Part shown: positions 9,018-33,814 of the stretch, piece by piece | Numbering within the stretch: position 1 is the stretch's first letter | How the letters are laid out: every line of letters starts with the position of its first letter | Origin: Alternaria dauci | Lineage: Eukaryota > Ascomycota > Dothideomycetes > Pleosporales > Pleosporaceae | NCBI RefSeq assembly: GCF_042100115.1 | Contig: NC_091272.1 | Location: forward strand, 5,456,001-5,520,000 | DNA: 64,000 nt | Reading direction: 5' to 3' | Position numbers and translations under genes: made by a program | Notes under the pieces: model-generated | The model's database searches: none | What the model was told of the DNA's origin: nothing | What the model saw: the letters and a program-made list of their open reading frames with translations, nothing else

Positions 9018-11609
9018 ATGGGACGAGGCGGAGGTCGCGTAAGTAGACGCTGCATGCGCCACACATGTACAACGCCCACTGACTTCGCATAGGGCGGTGG
9101 TCGCAAGCCATTTCGCGGCAAGGGCAGAGGTCGCGGCGGCGGCGGCGGTGGTGGTGGAGGACGCGATACTCGCTCAGAACCATGGTCCACCATCGAGCGC
9201 AAGAACGAGCTCTTCGAGAGCTACTACAGAATGGGAGGATTCCTGGAAGAGTCAGAGTTTGAGGAAATGTGGAAGGCGCTCCAGACGGACCTGCCAAACA
9301 GCTTCCGCTTCACTGGCACCAAGTCCGATGCCCTCGCAGTGCGCGAGATCTTCAAGCAGCGCTACATCCCCGCCATTGCGTCCACGCGCTTCGAAGGCAA
9401 GCCAGTGTCGCCTCCCGAGGCTGTGCAGGCCTTCCCCGACGAGCTCGTATGGCACATGAAGACGCACAAGAAGATCATTCGCCGACATGCGCCCTTTGCC
9501 GATTTCCAAAAGTTCCTCGTCGCCGAAGCAGCGTCAGGCAACATTAGCAGACAGGAGGTTGTCAGCATGATCCCGCCACACTTCCTCGACGTGAAGCCAG
9601 GAATGGTGGTCCTCGACATGTGCGCGGCGCCGGGAAGCAAGTCGGCGCAGTTGGCTGAGATGATCCACGGCGACGAAGAGGAGCGCGTACAGCGGGTAGC
9701 GAATGGCGAGTCGGTCGACCTTACCCAGGACGGTGACTACAGCGACGGCGGACGTTCAACAGGTCTCCTCATTGCGAACGATTCCGACTATAAGCGCGCC
9801 GGCATGTTGGTCCATCAGGTCAAGCGACTCAACTTTCCCAACCTTATTGTCACGCAACACGACGCCTCGATCTTCCCTTCGATCGAACTCCCCAGCGACG
9901 GCAACAAGAAGCAGTACCTCAAGTACGACAGGATATTGGCTGACGTCCCCTGCTCTGGCGATGGAACAGCCCGTAAGAACCCGAACGTATGGCAAAAGTG
10001 GACGCCCAAGGATGGTCTTGGCCTTCACGGTCTCCAGCTACGCATCTTGTTCCGAGGTCTCCAGATGCTGAAGAAGGGCGGCCGCATGGTGTACTCTACT
10101 TGCAGTCTGAACCCCATCGAGAACGAGGCTGTCGTTGCCGCAGCTATCGAGGCTTGCGGAGGAAACTCCAAGGTCCGACTGGTAGACTGCTCAGATCACC
10201 TGCCAAACCTCAAGCGGAAGCCGGGTCTCAACACATGGAAGGTGCTCGACACATCCTCAGTAACTGCTGCAGGAGAGAAGACTGCCCACCTGTTCACCAG
10301 CTGGGAGACATACCAGAAAGCGAGGGCGAAGTACGACGCCGAGGAACCAGAGCGCCAGTTTTCCACCAAGGTTACCCCCGGATGTTTCCCGCCTGTGCCA
10401 AAGTCCGAAGAGGAGCGCATCCCCCTCGAGCACTGCATACGTGTCTACCCGCATTTGCAAGATACTGGTGGTTTCTTCATTGCCATTCTTGAGAAGCTTG
10501 ACGACATCAAGGTCGCGCAAGTGCAGAACCCAGAGAATGCGACCAAGGCCCAAAGGTCACACGACAACGCTGAGACGACCACCGACTCCTCGATTCCAAC
10601 CCCTGATGAGAATGTGATCGAGGCAGACGCTACCAAAGGAGAGTCTGCGGATGCCTCTGCGGCACCGTTGAAGCGTAAATTGGAGGAATCTGAAGGCACT
10701 GAAGCGCCCAAGAAGGCCAAGACCGAGGACGCAGCACCAACACCAGAGGTCAAACCCGCGACTAACGGCTCGGCCGCCCGTTTGAAGCCCGAGAACCAGT
10801 CCCAAGCCAAGGAATACTTTGAGTACCTTTCCTCTGATGATCCAACCATTGCCAACATCATGGACTTCTTTGGCATCGATGAGCGCTTCCCACGCGACCG
10901 CTTCATGGTCAAGAACAAGGAAGGTCTCTCCCTCAACAAGATTTATTACACCTCCGAACTTGCAAAGACCATTCTCACGCTAAACAAGGACCGTGGCATG
11001 AAGTTCATACATTGCGGTGTCGTAATGTTCGTGTCGCATAGAATCAAGGACCAGGATCGTACTCAAGCGCCATGGAGACTGCAGAATGAGGGTATCCGTA
11101 TCCTTGAGCCATGGGCTAGGAAGCGGATAGTCAAGCTGGAGAAGAAGGAGACCTTGCGCCAACTCATCCGAGAGATGTTCCCCAAGCTGCCAAAGGAGGG
11201 TGACACCGGTCTGGGTGAGGTCGGCGAGCAGCTGCAGCCGATGGATGTCGGTTGCTGCTTTATCCGTGTTGAGAAGGATGAGGAGCAGGGCATCCCATTC
11301 CGCATGGTACTACCACTCTGGAGGCATCCTGGCAGTGCCAACCTCATGGTCGACAAGGACGACCGCAAGGCCATGCTGCTTAGGTTGTTCAACGAGAAGG
11401 ATACCGAGATCATCAACCACGTTGCGGACAAGGCCAAGGCGGAGCAAAAAGCTCTCGAAGCCGAGGAAGCAGCGGAAGACGATGTCAAGGTGAAGGAAGA
11501 GGTAGATGTCAGTGACGGCGAGCAAGCCACTGAGGCCATGGTGGCTGAAGAAGAACAGGGAGTTATGAAGGTTGAGGAGGAGGATGTGAAAATGGAAGAG
11601 GGCGCCTAG
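9018..11609 (+). CDS. TRM4: tRNA (cytosine-5-)-methyltransferase, Trm4/Ncl1 (NSUN2 family)
   Basis: Nuclear SAM-dependent RNA m5C methyltransferase that modifies several cytosines of tRNAs. A 21-nt first exon (9018-9038), an intron at 9039-9092, and exon 2 from 9093 to 11609 give 845 aa. The N-terminus is RGG-like (GRGGGR, then a Gly/Arg run), as in other fungal members. Visible catalytic motifs are VLDMCAAPGSKSAQLAE near residue 178 (SAM binding), ADVPCSGDGTARKN near 293 (PC motif) and YSTCSLNPIENEAV near 342 (TC motif with the nucleophilic Cys). The C-terminal third carries the conserved Trm4 extension, a Lys/Glu-rich linker and an acidic tail. Yeast Ncl1 is 684 aa, so the linker and tail account for the extra length. 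Confidence 0.95.
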
Positions 11610-27471: not shown

Positions 27472-27737
27472 GGTGTTTGGCTGTTGGCGGGGTCTTTGTA
27501 ATGTTCTTATGTGCTTTTTGCTTTTGTTCCAAGAGCAGCGCCTGAGTTAGCACGCAAATAGAGTGTTGCTGATGTGGAGTGGTGTGGAATGGGTGGGACG
27601 AGAAGAAGTCGCGTCTTTACGCGGCAGGAGGGACCAATGCAAACATCTGATCCGCCAAGGCTGGTCACGGCAGCAACCGCGCTTACGTCATCCACCCTCT
27701 CACTTTGCGCAACCTCAGGCATCGACCACTGTACAAG

Positions 27738-29096
27738 ATGTATCTACGCCAGCCAATATTCCGGATAGCGTGGTGCAGAAGCCATCTGGTCCAGGTCAAT
27801 CGCCGTTTCATCTCATCCGAAAAGACAGTACCCGCCGACAAGCCACATGCATTCCAATCGCTGCCCCCAGAGTGGGAGGATGAACCTCCTTCGCTGGAGG
27901 ACTTTACACAGCTACCACACAAGGACTTTGGGAAGAATCAGCTGATACAAACGAATGAGGAGTTTAAGCGATCGTTAAGAGGCATCCTCCGCAAATTTCC
28001 ACCCGTCACCTATGCGTTTGCCTATGGCTCCGGTGTCTTTCCGCAGTCGGCTGCGACAGCTTCGCGCACGTCGCAATCCCCTCATCCGAACCCGCCCAAG
28101 GCGATTCTCAAATGGCAGAAAGGCGGTGGAAAGATGATAGACTTTATCTTGACACCTCGGTACTCGCAGCACTTCCACTCGCTCAACCTGCGCGAACACC
28201 GAGACCACTATTCTTTCCTCGGGTCCCTCGGCTCAGGGGTCGTCAGCCATGTGCAGGACAGATATGGTGCTGGCGCCTACTTTAATCCGTATGTTGTAGT
28301 AAACGGAACGATGATCAAGTATGCTGTTGTCAACTACGAAACGCTCCTTCGCGATCTCACCGACTGGGACACGCTCTACTTCGCCGGCCGTTTACACAAG
28401 CCCGTCAAGATCCTCCACGAAGAGCCCAACCTCCGTGTCGCGAACCAACGCAACCTCCTCTCTGCCGTACGATGCGCGCTTCTCCTACTTCCCGAGAAGT
28501 TCACCGAGAAGGAACTATACTCTACAATCACCGGCTTGAGCTACCAGGGCGATCCGCGTATGCAGTACGGCAGCGAGAACCCTAAGAAGATTGACAACAT
28601 TGTTACGCATCAAATAAAAAACTTCAGATACCTCTACCACGACCTCGTACTGTCACTACCGAATATCCTGTACGCCGACGACTCCGCGGTACGCACAGCT
28701 GGGTGGATAGAAGACCAGAGCCTCGACCAGAAGATGTCACAAGATATGGACCCTGAAAGGCGCGCTACTATGATTAGGCGATTGCCCAAAAAGTTCCGTG
28801 AGAAGGTCTACTTCCAGTACCGCGGCAAGTTTGGCATCTCGGGCCGCGAATACCAGGAGATGTTGGAAGCAAGCAAGGACGATTCTTCTGGCGGCATCGT
28901 CAAGAAGCAGGTTGCCGGCGACTTTGACAAGCGGATAGCCAGAGAGAAGGACATTCCGCAGATGGTCACCAAGGCGATCAACCAGACGGTCAAGTGGCCT
29001 TCGACCGTGCAGACCCTGAAAGGACCTCTCACCGCGGGTTTCTCAAAGTCGTTGCGGTACCTACAGGAGAAGAGGGAGAAGGCGAGGATGAAGTGA
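27738..29096 (+). CDS. TAM41: Mitochondrial CDP-diacylglycerol synthase Tam41 (Mmp37)
   Basis: Inner-membrane peripheral enzyme making CDP-diacylglycerol from phosphatidate and CTP for cardiolipin synthesis. Single exon, 452 aa. The start is the first in-frame ATG, MYLRQPIFRIAWCRSHL, a basic amphipathic mitochondrial presequence; an in-frame TTG at 27705 was not used. The nucleotidyltransferase signature is YAFAYGSGVFPQ followed by KMIDFILTPRY. Family blocks SLNLREHRDHYSFLGSLG, YGAGAYFNPYVVVNG, MIKYAVVNYETLLRDL and LYFAGRLHKPVKIL are all present. The C-terminus is basic. It lies head to head with the BIR gene (266 bp between starts). Confidence 0.95.
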   Translation: MYLRQPIFRIAWCRSHLVQVNRRFISSEKTVPADKPHAFQSLPPEWEDEPPSLEDFTQLPHKDFGKNQLIQTNEEFKRSLRGILRKFPPVTYAFAYGSGVFPQSAATASRTSQSPHPNPPKAILKWQKGGGKMIDFILTPRYSQHFHSLNLREHRDHYSFLGSLGSGVVSHVQDRYGAGAYFNPYVVVNGTMIKYAVVNYETLLRDLTDWDTLYFAGRLHKPVKILHEEPNLRVANQRNLLSAVRCALLLLPEKFTEKELYSTITGLSYQGDPRMQYGSENPKKIDNIVTHQIKNFRYLYHDLVLSLPNILYADDSAVRTAGWIEDQSLDQKMSQDMDPERRATMIRRLPKKFREKVYFQYRGKFGISGREYQEMLEASKDDSSGGIVKKQVAGDFDKRIAREKDIPQMVTKAINQTVKWPSTVQTLKGPLTAGFSKSLRYLQEKREKARMK

Positions 29097-29579: not shown

Positions 29580-29586
29580 GGCTCAA

Positions 29587-29597
29587 TGGTCTAGTCG
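29587..29597 (+). promoter_or_regulatory. Pol III A box of tRNA-Pro
   Basis: TGGTCTAGTCG fits the A-box consensus TRGYNNARNNG and lies in the uninterrupted 5' part of the tRNA gene. Confidence 0.75.
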
Positions 29598-29612
29598 TAT
29601 GATTCCTGCTTT

Positions 29613-29672
29613 GTAAGCTCCATACGCCTCATCTGCTACAACGTCAGCAGTTGTTCTAACAAACATCCACAG
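29613..29672 (+). other. Spliceosomal-type GT-AG intron 1 in tRNA-Pro
   Basis: 60 nt with donor GTAAGC, branch-like TTCTAACAA whose branch A lies about 13 nt before the 3' end, and acceptor CCACAG. It splits the anticodon after its first base. Length and signals match the introns of protein genes in this window. The tRNA splicing endonuclease is not known to use this position. Confidence 0.75.
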
Positions 29673-29675
29673 GGG

Positions 29676-29689
29676 TTCTCAAGCTTAAG
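29676..29689 (+). other. Canonical tRNA intron in tRNA-Pro
   Basis: 14 nt (TTCTCAAGCTTAAG) between anticodon-loop positions 37 and 38, the standard site of nuclear tRNA introns; yeast tRNA-Pro(TGG) also has an intron here. Confidence 0.75.
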
Positions 29690-29707
29690 TGCAGGAGGTC
29701 CCGGGTT

Positions 29708-29757
29708 GTAAGTTGAGAGTTCGATTCAGGCTCTGATCAACCACTAACATGTGTTAG
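29708..29757 (+). other. Spliceosomal-type GT-AG intron 2 in tRNA-Pro
   Basis: 50 nt with a perfect GTAAGT donor, branch-like CACTAACA about 13 nt from the end, and acceptor TGTTAG. It lies between the first two T-loop bases and the remaining CAAAT and so divides the B box. Confidence 0.75.
29719..29727 (+). promoter_or_regulatory. B-box-like motif inside intron 2 of tRNA-Pro
   Basis: GTTCGATTC matches the core B-box pattern GWTCRANNC. It lies inside the second GT-AG intron, about 120 bp from the A box, a spacing tolerated in intron-containing tRNA genes. It could substitute for the interrupted B box. Confidence 0.5.
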
Positions 29758-29788
29758 CAAATCCCGGTTGAGCCCTGATATATCTTCC

Positions 29789-29794
29789 TTTTTT
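29789..29794 (+). terminator. Pol III terminator of tRNA-Pro
   Basis: A run of six T 14 bases after the mature 3' end, backed up by a run of seven T near 29799-29805. Confidence 0.65.
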
Positions 29795-30046
29795 GCTATT
29801 TTTTTCGACTAGAATATAGGCATGCAGGAGAGGTGATGTGGTTGTTGTCATTTTTCTTCTTGTAGTCACATGTAGCGTGCGTGCGCAGTCTTGGGGAATG
29901 AATGATAACATTGAAATCGCATCGACGAGGTATCTTGGTATCCAACAAACTCCAGAAACACATAATCAGACCGCAGAACAGGTATCATCACTTCATGACC
30001 AACGCCAACTCAAAACGCCAATCCGGCCAAGGCACTGGCCCAACAC

Positions 30047-33000
30047 TCATCGGCCACTCCGCGGCCACTCAACCTCCAAACCTCCACTGCGATCAATCTG
30101 CCTGCCTTCCCTCTCATCTCGTCGCACACTCTCGCCCATAACGACAGTAGCAAGCCGCCTCAATACCTCCTGGCCAGTGATAAGCTCGCCAAGGACACCA
30201 GGCGCGCAATCGCCCATCTGGAGCCTCTTTCCAGTGACCTCGTAATACTCCTCTTCATTCTCAAGACTCAGAAGCTGCATGAACACGCTGCACATGACCA
30301 CCAGCTCCTCGGTCATGACCATGCTGTAGCCCCAGGCGTGGAATGTGGCGCCAACGTACGGCAGGTTTCCGTTTCTGGAAATGAATTGTCGGAGGAGGTA
30401 GCCGTTGGTGTTTGAGAGGGGCGTAGGGGGGACAATGGATGGACAGAAGAGCGCAGGGTGCTTGAGGTGCGTGGTGTACAGTTTGTCGAGCGCCTTGTAA
30501 TGTGTCCTTGTCCATGGCTCGATCTTGGGAAGTGGCGTCAGGCGCGAGATGATTGGATGTGGTGCGGGTGGAGGTGGTCGTATGATGGTAGACTTTACGC
30601 GATCGAGGAGATTCAGTTGTTCACGGGCGGCTACTTCAGGGCTGGCTTGCGATTGCGCGCTGGAGGAACTTTCTACTGAGTCGTCGACAACCTGTGGTCC
30701 GCTGTAACGCGACGATGACTGCGCAGAGGACTCGTGCGAACGCGGCGAAACTTTGGATAGCGGCGACGGCTTACGTGCTGCTAATAAGCTCTGCTGGAGT
30801 CGCTGCTGCATCCTCGATGGACTCGATGCAAGCCGGCTCGGCTCCTCAGTGATCTCCGTGATTTCGTTCAGGGTCCGCTCCTGCGGCTCGTAGGCGTCGA
30901 GGTACTCATTCGCTTCTTCGCGTACACGAACTATGGTAGAAGCTGTGTCGCCCTCCATCTCCACACGAAACTGTCGTTGATCAGATGCTGCAGAGATCTT
31001 GCTATCGCCCTCGACAATGGTGTGGAATGGTGAGCTTTGCACGAGTGGTAGCGTTGACTCCTCGAACTGGACCGAACTCGTCGAGATGTCGGCGCTTTGA
31101 AGCTCTCTCCTCAAAGGGCTGCTCTTCTTTGGTGAGCTCATCAAAGCTGGAAAGCGAGGCGGCGTGTCAATGAACGGGTTTGTCTTTGTTCGCGCAGATG
31201 GCTTCCTTGTTACTACTGGCGGCGATGACTCTGGAACGTAGCTATCACCTTGGTCAAGAAGCTCCTCCAGACTCACTTTCTCCTTCTCTTGAAGTCTCTG
31301 CCTCCGTTGCTCAAATCGCGATGGTTGCTTCTGATTGAAGACGTTTGGCACGTTCGACTGGAAGAACATACCAGTGTCATCACTGGCCTCGCTCGCCGGA
31401 CTCGACTCGTCTCCATCCTGCATTGGCTTGTCCTCGGACAATGGCGTTATTACATTACTGCCTTGCTCTTCTTCACCATCTTCTGGTTGGTCTGGGACTT
31501 CGGGTTCCGGTTCTGCAGGGCTGGGCTCTTTTGGTGGTTCTACTTCACCGCCACGGCGGGCTTCATTCGCCCTCTTGCGACGCCACTCTCTGAGGAGCTG
31601 GCCGCGAGCCGGCTTGGCAGGGATGTTTTCTGTGAAGATGTCATGCAACGACTCTTCTTTCTCTGCAGGCACTTCCTCTGTCTCGGCTGAAACTAATGAG
31701 CGACTAGCCTCCTCTTGCCAGATGTCAGCGTAGTCGTCCCATTGCGCAGGTTTGTTCGTGCGCCCTGCGGGCTGGTCCTGCTGCGTTTCTTCGGTCCCAT
31801 TGTTTCTTTGTGGTAGACCAGGACGTTTCGCGGGAGGTGTGTCGGCTCGCCAGCTCATCTCGCCCTCGCTCCTCGCTGGACTTAATGGTGCTTCCTCTTC
31901 CTCCTGCTCCTCAATCGCCTCTTCTTCAACATTCAGGTTCGGGTACTGCACCTCACTTGCCATCGCTGTGGGTTCTGCTGGTGTTGGCTCCGTTGTTATT
32001 GGCACCTCTGGTGTTGCGACATGGTCCTGGTCTTCGGGTGTAATAAGGCGTGACTGACGAGACTTTCGTTGCGTTCGGAACACACCTCGTCTGGGAGCTG
32101 TCGCAGAAAGCCTTCTAACAGGGCTCGAAGGGCCTGGCGCACTGTCTTCGTGTGTCTGGCCCTCGGCTAGCTGCTCACCAAGACGCAGACCTGCTTGAAG
32201 CTCTTTTCGGGTGCCTTCGCTGAAGCCACGGAACAGATCGTCCAAGGAGCCGCGCTTCTGGTTGAGTGCCTGTTGAGAGGGTTCTGGCGTAAGGCTAAGA
32301 CGGTTGGGATCCAACAAGCCTTGCAAAGCTACACCAGCAGTAACGACACGACCGAGCGTTGGCGTTTGTGATTTTGAGCGAACAGACTCGAGAGCGGGCG
32401 GTGCTGATGGAAGATCGGCATCTACGACAGGCGTCACAAAGCGCGATGATTTTGGTCGTCCAGAGTCGGTGGGCGCTGTATAAGGATCAGGGGGAGGCGG
32501 TGCGAGCTCTCGAGAGTTCGATGGCCCAGCATCGTGCGTTGTATCTGACGATGGCCGGGTGTACTCGTTTCTGAGTGACGACCTGACGGTTGCTGCCGTG
32601 GTGTTCTGCATCTCTTGTGGTTTGGGCGGGCTACGTGCTCCATTGCTAAGCAGTGTGTCGAGTGAGATCATGGTGAAGCTCTCATTCTGAATGGTTGTGT
32701 CGTCGACCATCCTCGTTGTGGCCTGGTCAGAAGCGAACTCTGCAGCATCTCCGTCCTCGGGTTCGTCGTCCTCGAAGGCTTGACCGTGGTCGTCACCTGC
32801 GTCGCTAGAGGAGACAGAGCTTTCGCTGGGTGTTGGCAGGCTTGCGTGGCCATCTTCAGAGACATCGACATCGACAGCTTCACCGGTTTGTATAGGATCT
32901 CCGTCTTCTTCTCCACTAGCCGGCGTGAGAACGTCGCTCCCCTCGTCCTCGTGTTCGTCCGACTCCATGAGTACCACCCTGTTCGCGTGCGGAGTGCCCT

Positions 33001-33814
33001 GCCGCGTCCGTATATCCTGTCGCATGCTCCTCTGTATCGGTGAGCTTAGGTTGGGCAGTTCCTCAGCCTCCATCAGCGCATCGCTCATGGTCTCGGTAGT
33101 GGGGGCGGGGCGATCTGAGAAGCGTGCGCTCTTCTGTGAGGTGCCCGAGTTTGAGCTTGAAGGCTGTGCGGGCGTGACATCTCGCGCGGAGCCTTCTCGT
33201 GTGTTTGATGTCTCCGGCGGTAGTTGTACGTTCTTCCTTGGCCGCCCCCTCCGCTTCTTTGGCGGCACGTCGGTATCCACGTCGGCTGCGCTTGACTCTC
33301 CAGCCTTCATATTCGTCTCCGGAGATGTAGATCGTGCGGCTCTCTTGACTGGTGTTCCCTTTCGCTTTGGCTTCGGCGTGGCTCCTACGTCAGACTTCCG
33401 GGGCCGTCCGCGGGGGCGTTTGACGGGAGACGACGCATCGTGGTCCTTCAATGGCACCGTCGTGGTCTTCGTTCGCGTGACGCGCTTCACGGACGGCGAC
33501 TCGGCGTTCACTTCGTCGCTTCCGGGTTCGGCCTGGACGGTGACCTTGATGCGCCAGGGGCTCGCGCCGCCCGCGCGTGGTGTGCTCATGATCATCGACT
33601 TGGTGGGCGACGAGAACATCATCTCGGAGGCGCCCAGTCTGCGGTCCTGCTTGGTTGGCGAGCTTCGCGCCATTGAGTCTCTTGGCATGGGTTTCCGTCC
33701 TGACGTCGGGATGGTGGCGTCAAAGGAGAGGGCCAGCGGATCCGGGCTCGAGTCGTAGCTGCGGTCGGCATGGGCATCGTCGCCTGCCGCTGCGCTTCGA
33801 CCGCGGGGCGCCAT
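30047..33814 (-). CDS. Large AT-hook DNA-binding protein
   Basis: Single-exon gene of 1255 aa. Two AT-hook motifs occur in the N-terminal fifth: RPRGRPRKSD near residue 135 and RRGRPRKN near 188. They imply minor-groove binding to AT-rich DNA in the nucleus. Most of the protein is low-complexity, acidic and Ser/Pro-rich with many SP and TP sites. The C-terminal 170 residues are ordered and look conserved (IEPWTRTHYKALDKLYTTHL, YVGATFHAWGYSMVMTEELV, ENEEEYYEVTGKRLQMGDC), as in fungal proteins annotated only as AT DNA-binding proteins. It is divergent from the GEN1 resolvase, 200 bp away, which hints at shared control. The specific function is unknown. Confidence 0.85.
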   Translation of the reverse strand: MAPRGRSAAAGDDAHADRSYDSSPDPLALSFDATIPTSGRKPMPRDSMARSSPTKQDRRLGASEMMFSSPTKSMIMSTPRAGGASPWRIKVTVQAEPGSDEVNAESPSVKRVTRTKTTTVPLKDHDASSPVKRPRGRPRKSDVGATPKPKRKGTPVKRAARSTSPETNMKAGESSAADVDTDVPPKKRRGRPRKNVQLPPETSNTREGSARDVTPAQPSSSNSGTSQKSARFSDRPAPTTETMSDALMEAEELPNLSSPIQRSMRQDIRTRQGTPHANRVVLMESDEHEDEGSDVLTPASGEEDGDPIQTGEAVDVDVSEDGHASLPTPSESSVSSSDAGDDHGQAFEDDEPEDGDAAEFASDQATTRMVDDTTIQNESFTMISLDTLLSNGARSPPKPQEMQNTTAATVRSSLRNEYTRPSSDTTHDAGPSNSRELAPPPPDPYTAPTDSGRPKSSRFVTPVVDADLPSAPPALESVRSKSQTPTLGRVVTAGVALQGLLDPNRLSLTPEPSQQALNQKRGSLDDLFRGFSEGTRKELQAGLRLGEQLAEGQTHEDSAPGPSSPVRRLSATAPRRGVFRTQRKSRQSRLITPEDQDHVATPEVPITTEPTPAEPTAMASEVQYPNLNVEEEAIEEQEEEEAPLSPARSEGEMSWRADTPPAKRPGLPQRNNGTEETQQDQPAGRTNKPAQWDDYADIWQEEASRSLVSAETEEVPAEKEESLHDIFTENIPAKPARGQLLREWRRKRANEARRGGEVEPPKEPSPAEPEPEVPDQPEDGEEEQGSNVITPLSEDKPMQDGDESSPASEASDDTGMFFQSNVPNVFNQKQPSRFEQRRQRLQEKEKVSLEELLDQGDSYVPESSPPVVTRKPSARTKTNPFIDTPPRFPALMSSPKKSSPLRRELQSADISTSSVQFEESTLPLVQSSPFHTIVEGDSKISAASDQRQFRVEMEGDTASTIVRVREEANEYLDAYEPQERTLNEITEITEEPSRLASSPSRMQQRLQQSLLAARKPSPLSKVSPRSHESSAQSSSRYSGPQVVDDSVESSSSAQSQASPEVAAREQLNLLDRVKSTIIRPPPPAPHPIISRLTPLPKIEPWTRTHYKALDKLYTTHLKHPALFCPSIVPPTPLSNTNGYLLRQFISRNGNLPYVGATFHAWGYSMVMTEELVVMCSVFMQLLSLENEEEYYEVTGKRLQMGDCAPGVLGELITGQEVLRRLATVVMGESVRRDEREGRQIDRSGGLEVEWPRSGR

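Follow-up and report, generated by a model that had tools for sequence, protein, structure and literature searches.

The window analysed here is a stretch of 64,000 nucleotides from the fungus Alternaria dauci (contig NC_091272.1, positions 5,456,001 to 5,520,000), and our subject is a gene for tRNA-Pro(UGG) at 29580-29774 on its forward strand. Judging from the sequence, we think it very probable (roughly 0.88) that this is a working gene transcribed by RNA polymerase III (Pol III), that it carries two spliceosomal introns in addition to one intron of the tRNA-endonuclease type, and that it belongs to a class of such genes present throughout the genome.

The anatomy of the gene, with all its features on the forward strand, is established. 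Exon 1 (29580-29612) holds the 5' strand of the acceptor stem, the D arm, the 5' strand of the anticodon stem and U34; the match to our D-arm pattern, in the A box region, lies at 29587-29604. It is followed by a GT-AG intron of spliceosomal type at 29613-29672 (60 nt, GTAAGC...TTCTAAC...CACAG, CTAAC branch motif at 29656-29660), which separates anticodon positions 34 and 35, a site that is also used in the other two Pro genes found. Exon 2 consists of G35, G36 and G37 (29673-29675). After position 37 comes the 14-nt sequence TTCTCAAGCTTAAG at 29676-29689, an intron of the endonuclease type, which ARAGORN sees as an anticodon-loop intron once both GT-AG pieces have been excised. Exon 3 (29690-29707) provides position 38, the 3' strand of the anticodon stem, the variable region, the 5' strand of the T stem, T54 and T55. 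The second GT-AG intron lies in the T loop between positions 55 and 56 (29708-29757, 50 nt, GTAAGT...ACTAACA...GTTAG, CTAAC branch motif at 29744-29748), and only one placement of its boundaries is possible. The rest of the T loop and the 3' strands of the T and acceptor stems make up exon 4 (29758-29774); then follow C73 and, starting 15 nt past the acceptor stem, a T6 run at 29789-29794 that is likely to be the Pol III terminator. The intron coordinates of the original prediction turned out to be exact on rechecking. It had also proposed a 71-nt tRNA-Pro(TGG) with intact stems and the T loop TTCAAAT, and this agrees both with the call of ARAGORN, which is a 71-nt tRNA-Pro(tgg) after excision of the three introns, and with our count of stem pairs (7 of 7 in the acceptor stem, 5 of 5 in the anticodon stem, 5 of 5 in the T stem). 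In the unspliced window no tRNA was detected by Rfam or ARAGORN.

The recurrence of this architecture is established as well. In whole-genome scans, all of them of the one 34.9-Mb genome from which the window comes, we found 13 nuclear tRNA genes of nine isoacceptors (the window gene and 12 others) with a total of 16 GT-AG introns, and since the architecture recurs in other genes, the window case is far beyond chance. Three of the introns are found at 34|35 in the anticodon, one in each of the three Pro genes found; 12 lie in the T arm and one in the D stem. The two GT-AG introns recur in a second Pro(TGG) gene (L011), which also has its own intron of the endonuclease type, and a Pro(CGG) gene (L012) combines the GT-AG intron at 34|35 with an endonuclease-type intron. 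The D-arm pattern scan that returned these two also gave three tRNA-His genes (L015, L025 and L032) with a GT-AG intron in each T loop. The three His genes have a similar 5' flank, with AGCTAACARYCCTATC immediately upstream of the gene. Further D-arm patterns yielded T-arm GT-AG introns in genes for Lys (L111), Glu (L126 and L128), Gly (L138) and Asp (L123). The Arg gene (L067) is a covariance match of 123 nt in which reading revealed a GT-AG intron at 53|54, while the Gln gene (L175), located with a pattern built on an intronic motif, has GT-AG introns in the D stem and in the T loop. In summary, ten genes beyond Pro have T-arm introns, and one of these (Gln) has the D-stem intron too. Note that a splice signal was part of the query for only one of the 16 introns (in the Gln T loop); the other 15 were reached through D-arm patterns or through the tRNA covariance model or, like the Gln D-stem intron, lay outside the query. 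ARAGORN calls each of the 13 genes a tRNA of sensible isotype when they are spliced; when they are unspliced, it misses 12 and calls L012 a tRNA-Thr.

The survey covers a sample of the tRNA genes. By hand we counted about 78 nuclear tRNA genes, namely 41 of the 58 covariance hits and 37 genes from pattern scans, and 13 of 78 is not a rate, because the sample favours tRNAs with certain D arms. The remaining 17 covariance hits form a dense cluster at about 3.34-3.40 Mb on contig C3, near the end of a contig of nuclear size, and we take them to lie in mitochondrial DNA that is either joined to the contig or inserted in it. One D-arm pattern gave 211 matches, and among the 100 of them that were listed, three Gly sites were inspected beyond those overlapping with another D-arm scan; there may be further Gly genes in the genome beyond those found. 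Another D-arm pattern gave 23 matches, of which 14 were inspected. There was no tRNA among the 3 inspected of 15 matches to a further pattern, none among the 9 inspected of 14 pattern matches for Pro(AGG), and none according to ARAGORN among the 16 inspected of 22 matches to one pattern for Thr(TGT) or Thr(CGT). It may be that the genes for Pro(AGG), Thr(TGT) and Thr(CGT) have such introns as well, perhaps in the D arm as in Gln. Several of the loci L016-L019, L021-L023, L026-L031 and L033 contain a dispersed AT-rich repeat with TAGTCTAGTAGTAGGATT, which is poor in C and G, as if it had been hit by repeat-induced point mutation.

Next, we considered the splice signals. All 16 introns have the sequence signals of a U2-type spliceosomal intron, with a GT donor, a CTAAY branch motif and a YAG acceptor, and their lengths range from 48 to 60 nt. 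The donors are GTAAGT (8), GTACGT (4), GTAAGC (2), GTTAGT (1) and GTAAGG (1); the branch motif is CTAAC in 13 introns and CTAAT in three, with the branch A 9-14 nt before the intron end; and the acceptors are CAG and TAG in eight introns each. The fungal intron consensus, as given in the available part of PMC5832005, is GTRWGT, RCTRAY and YAG with a branch-to-acceptor gap of 6-36 nt. Compared with it, the donor is exact in eight introns and has one mismatch in eight, the branch site is exact in seven and has a T in the first place in nine, and the acceptor agrees in all 16. The position of the boundaries is ambiguous by 1-3 nt in 10 of the 16 introns; GT-AG is permitted in every one and is the sole option in six. 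For comparison with protein genes we used three likely introns elsewhere in the genome, found by pattern and judged by eye. They come from the T-loop pattern GTTCGGTNNGT..., which has seven matches in the genome; four of these are known tRNA introns, and the remaining three (L171-L173) resemble introns of protein genes. A protein-intron finder based on a coding score gave 16 candidates, most of them with poor splice signals, and these were not used.

Several lines of evidence suggest that the interrupted genes are functional. The mature sequences of the two Glu genes, the Gly gene and the Lys gene are identical to those of intron-free siblings, and these siblings establish the existence of empty sites in the same genome. 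The intron is present in two of the five Glu(CTC), one of the three Gly(GCC), one of the six Lys(CTT) and one of the six Asp genes found. The interrupted Asp gene is a diverged copy, and inspection shows that its changes with respect to the siblings are paired, in the acceptor and D stems. Similarly, three of the seven acceptor-stem pairs differ between the two Pro(TGG) genes, and all three are altered on both sides. Structural constraint is established for the class as a whole, since 215 of the 221 pairs checked in the acceptor, anticodon and T stems of the 13 spliced genes are intact. Furthermore, T runs of 5-8 begin at most 22 nt downstream of all 13 genes. GC comes after the T run downstream of many such tRNA genes, for example at 29789-29796 (TTTTTTGC). 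As for uninterrupted His or Pro(TGG) genes, the D-arm scan of the genome returned interrupted copies only; none was found among the 31 matches of an exact B-box scan, whose pattern would also pick up an uninterrupted copy that shares the T arm; the spliced Pro sequence, used as a DNA query against the genome, returned only exon 1 of the window gene; and a covariance search gave none among the 63 of 931 candidates that it scored. Because no uninterrupted copy turned up, the interrupted His and Pro(UGG) genes are probably essential.

The T-arm introns divide the B box (consensus GGTTCRANTCC), and in the window gene it is intron 2 that divides the exonic copy. In 11 of the 12 genes with a T-arm intron the unspliced DNA has a B box with at most two mismatches. 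Seven of these are within the intron, for example AGTTCGATTCA at 29718-29728 on the forward strand in intron 2 of the window gene, a B-box-like element with two mismatches; in the three His genes the B box is formed at the donor, across the 5' junction (GGTTCGAgtAC, one mismatch), and in the Arg gene at the acceptor, across the 3' junction (AG|TTCGAGTCC, one mismatch). No B box reaches this threshold in the four GT-AG introns that lie elsewhere than in the T arm. We permuted the intron interiors while the donor, acceptor and flanks were kept fixed; the shuffled sets had such a B box in 4.5 genes on average and in 8 at most, and the observed total was matched in none of 2000 shuffles. It seems reasonable to suggest that the intronic B boxes may act as part of the Pol III promoter.

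To quantify the kinship of the introns, we compared all 120 pairs, each against 1000 shuffles with fixed ends. Eight pairs are beyond their shuffles (P < 0.001), with identities of 0.65-0.83 against a median of 0.64 for all pairs. These are the Glu pair, the three His pairs, Glu-Gly twice, Lys with one Glu, and one His with Arg, so that four of the eight cross isotypes. The best example of a single intron shared by two isotypes is Glu-Gly, the T arms matching around the insertion, and it could be explained by copying or by gene conversion. Suggestive links exist elsewhere, for example between Lys and Gln or between Pro L011 and Glu (P 0.002). A 34|35 intron is nearly as close (Pro L011 with Glu, P 0.006), and shared signals therefore add to the likeness. 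The motif GTTCGAYTC...CTAAC has nine matches in the genome, six in tRNA introns and three elsewhere. The Glu/Gly intron with its flanks had no match in IMG/VR or in prokaryote genomes, which carries little weight for these non-fungal collections. The introns may have spread between tRNA genes. In a broader sense, we lean slightly towards the idea that this lineage has spliceosomal introns adapted to tRNA genes, which carry or restore a B box, have spread across isotypes and have captured every His and Pro(UGG) gene, making the decoding of His and Pro codons dependent on the spliceosome in addition to the tRNA endonuclease.

Could the same observations be explained without the spliceosome? The insertions in the T arm, in the D stem and at 34|35 might be ectopic bulge-helix-bulge (BHB) introns that are cut by the tRNA-splicing endonuclease, in the manner of archaea or of Cyanidioschyzon merolae. 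In tRNA-Ile(UAU) of C. merolae the introns are at 12/13, 37/38 and 53/54, which are strikingly similar sites, and the D and T introns leave first (PMC9602550, in the portion available); moreover, nucleomorph tRNAs of Guillardia theta have ectopic introns, many of them without a defined BHB (PMC3978253, likewise in part). However, endonuclease introns rely on structure and not on GT-AG, according to the accessible text of PMC13149111, while here GT...CTAAY...YAG is found in 16 of 16. A 4-bp BHB helix is possible in four of the 16 introns if the offsets are relaxed, but a strict 4-bp central helix in only one, and there only at a boundary that is not GT-AG. On this test of the central helix we rejected the BHB explanation of the GT-AG introns, which we regard as quite improbable. 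Another explanation concerns only the three Pro genes, which would be tRNA-Thr(UGU/CGU) genes with one long endonuclease intron (TTTGTA|AG...), so that only the T-loop insertions would be odd. ARAGORN indeed assigns L012 to Thr(cgt), giving it an intron of 87 nt, and reads the window gene as Thr(tgt) if intron 1 is left in place, and a Thr(TGT) or Thr(CGT) gene distinct from these was not found among the 16 inspected of the 22 matches mentioned above. On the other hand, the Thr(AGT) tRNA of this genome has GCC...GGC-A73 and a different D arm, whereas the three genes have GGC...GCC-C73 and the D arm TGGTCTAGTNGTATGATT, which is typical of tRNA-Pro in fungi. GTAAG...CTAAC...AG|GGG occurs in one and the same position in all three, and the T-loop introns are left unexplained by a Thr identity. 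As acceptor, discriminator and D arm are unlike those of Thr(AGT), this explanation was rejected; it appears to us the most far-fetched of those considered.

It could also be that the interrupted genes are pseudogenes, or non-functional relics that have gained insertions, as might be thought from the failure of ARAGORN to identify any of them correctly before splicing. This is countered by the preserved stem pairs, by the Glu, Gly and Lys mature sequences that equal those of their siblings, by the paired changes in Pro and Asp, by the T runs downstream of every gene and by the lack of any uninterrupted His or Pro(TGG) gene among those found. We therefore consider it unlikely, both for the window gene and for the class.

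While we prefer spliceosomal introns in working tRNA genes, a number of observations weigh against this reading. Half of the acceptors are TAG, whereas U3 introns strongly favour CAG (PMC5832005, in the part available). All six broken stem pairs are in His, where C1:C72 and T27:C43 are mismatched in each of the three genes. The covariance search for uninterrupted His or Pro(TGG) genes scored only 63 of its 931 candidates. The best B box of the Asp gene, at the 3' junction, has three mismatches; the P values of the seven intronic B boxes taken singly range from 0.009 to 0.11; and the His and Arg B boxes are at junctions that the shuffle held fixed. A B box with at most two mismatches is found in one of 20 intron-like matches from the window, compared with seven of 11 T-loop introns (Mann-Whitney P 0.017), but this control is weak because shuffled windows also give 5-16 intron-like matches. 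The motif shared by the tRNA introns is not enriched in the genome, and since the backward pattern occurs 76 times, against nine for the forward one, it is notable for its place and not for its count. Finally, the order of splicing is not forced, because an anticodon stem is possible even before splicing.

If the introns are spliceosomal, the window gene would be transcribed by Pol III from its A box together with the B box in intron 2, and within the nucleus the spliceosome would excise both GT-AG introns. Once the anticodon loop and the T arm were restored in this way, the 14-nt intron would be removed by the tRNA endonuclease and ligase. T-arm introns would mostly bring or restore a B box, and we therefore propose that TFIIIC can still bind. 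That the GT-AG introns are spliced, and that the spliceosome acts first, is what we infer, the latter because the two introns break up the anticodon loop (intron 1) and the T loop (intron 2). In the original prediction, intron 1 had to leave before the endonuclease could recognise its stem. In the predicted fold of the unspliced precursor, which is unremarkable (z -1.3), the anticodon loop and the T arm are disrupted; the acceptor and anticodon stems form, and the stem alone does not force the order. The more general proposal, that spliceosomal-type introns stand beside the endonuclease intron, has gained from the 12 further genes, the identical intron-free siblings, the compensatory changes between paralogues and the kept or replaced B boxes. 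That such genes occur throughout the genome, and that a B-box-like element lies in intron 2, had escaped the original prediction.

The tRNA-Pro gene is flanked on one side by a Tam41 gene (27705-29096) and on the other by a long open reading frame of the opposite strand (30047-33814). A gene for an RNA m5C methyltransferase of the NSUN2/Trm4 type is found in the same window (9231-11609, forward strand).

In textbooks, pre-mRNA splicing depends on sequence signals and the spliceosome, and nuclear tRNA splicing on structure and protein enzymes. If our interpretation is true, this divide is crossed, translation is tied to the spliceosome and some essential tRNAs need two unrelated splicing machines. 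It would also show how an intron can land in an internal promoter, namely by bringing or rebuilding that promoter. In practical terms, essential tRNAs can escape tRNA finders, as is seen from the 12 unspliced genes that ARAGORN missed and the one that it called Thr.

How do these genes compare with their nearest known counterparts? The intron of the U6 gene in Schizosaccharomyces pombe also holds a B box. The U6 snRNA of fission yeast is likewise small, structured and transcribed by Pol III, and its gene has a spliceosomal intron of the mRNA type (PMC10484740, in part). U6 itself belongs to the spliceosome, and reverse splicing is the supposed origin of its intron, whereas the host genes described here encode tRNAs of nine isoacceptors, the majority with an endonuclease-type intron too. 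The fungal U3 snoRNA genes similarly have GT-AG introns with RCTRAC branch sites, as well as intron-bearing and intron-free paralogues in one genome; their introns average 92 nt, compared with 48-60 nt here, and frequent interruption is stated to be known in no small structured RNAs other than U3 and U6 (all in the available part of PMC5832005). C. merolae and the Guillardia theta nucleomorph also have several introns per tRNA, in the D, anticodon and T arms, and for C. merolae it is believed that removal of the D and T introns precedes that of the anticodon intron (PMC9602550). From the portion of the literature at hand, which allows a comparison by description, these introns are reviewed as being of the BHB type, unlike ours, although many in Guillardia are without a defined BHB, and C. 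merolae has few spliceosomal introns (PMC3978253). Introner-like elements of Dothideomycetes are another example of related spliceosomal introns that were copied to new sites in a fungal genome (PMC4457414, in part), in a paper whose text never mentions tRNA; such elements would be expected as near-identical copies at many unrelated sites, mostly in protein genes, while here six of nine motif matches are in tRNA introns and three elsewhere, and identity between copies is only 0.7-0.8. The original prediction knew of no accepted case of spliceosomal introns in nuclear tRNA, and we likewise found no report in the open-access literature examined, though one may be in print elsewhere. What appears to be new is the host class, tRNA, while the intron type and the Pol III precedent are known.
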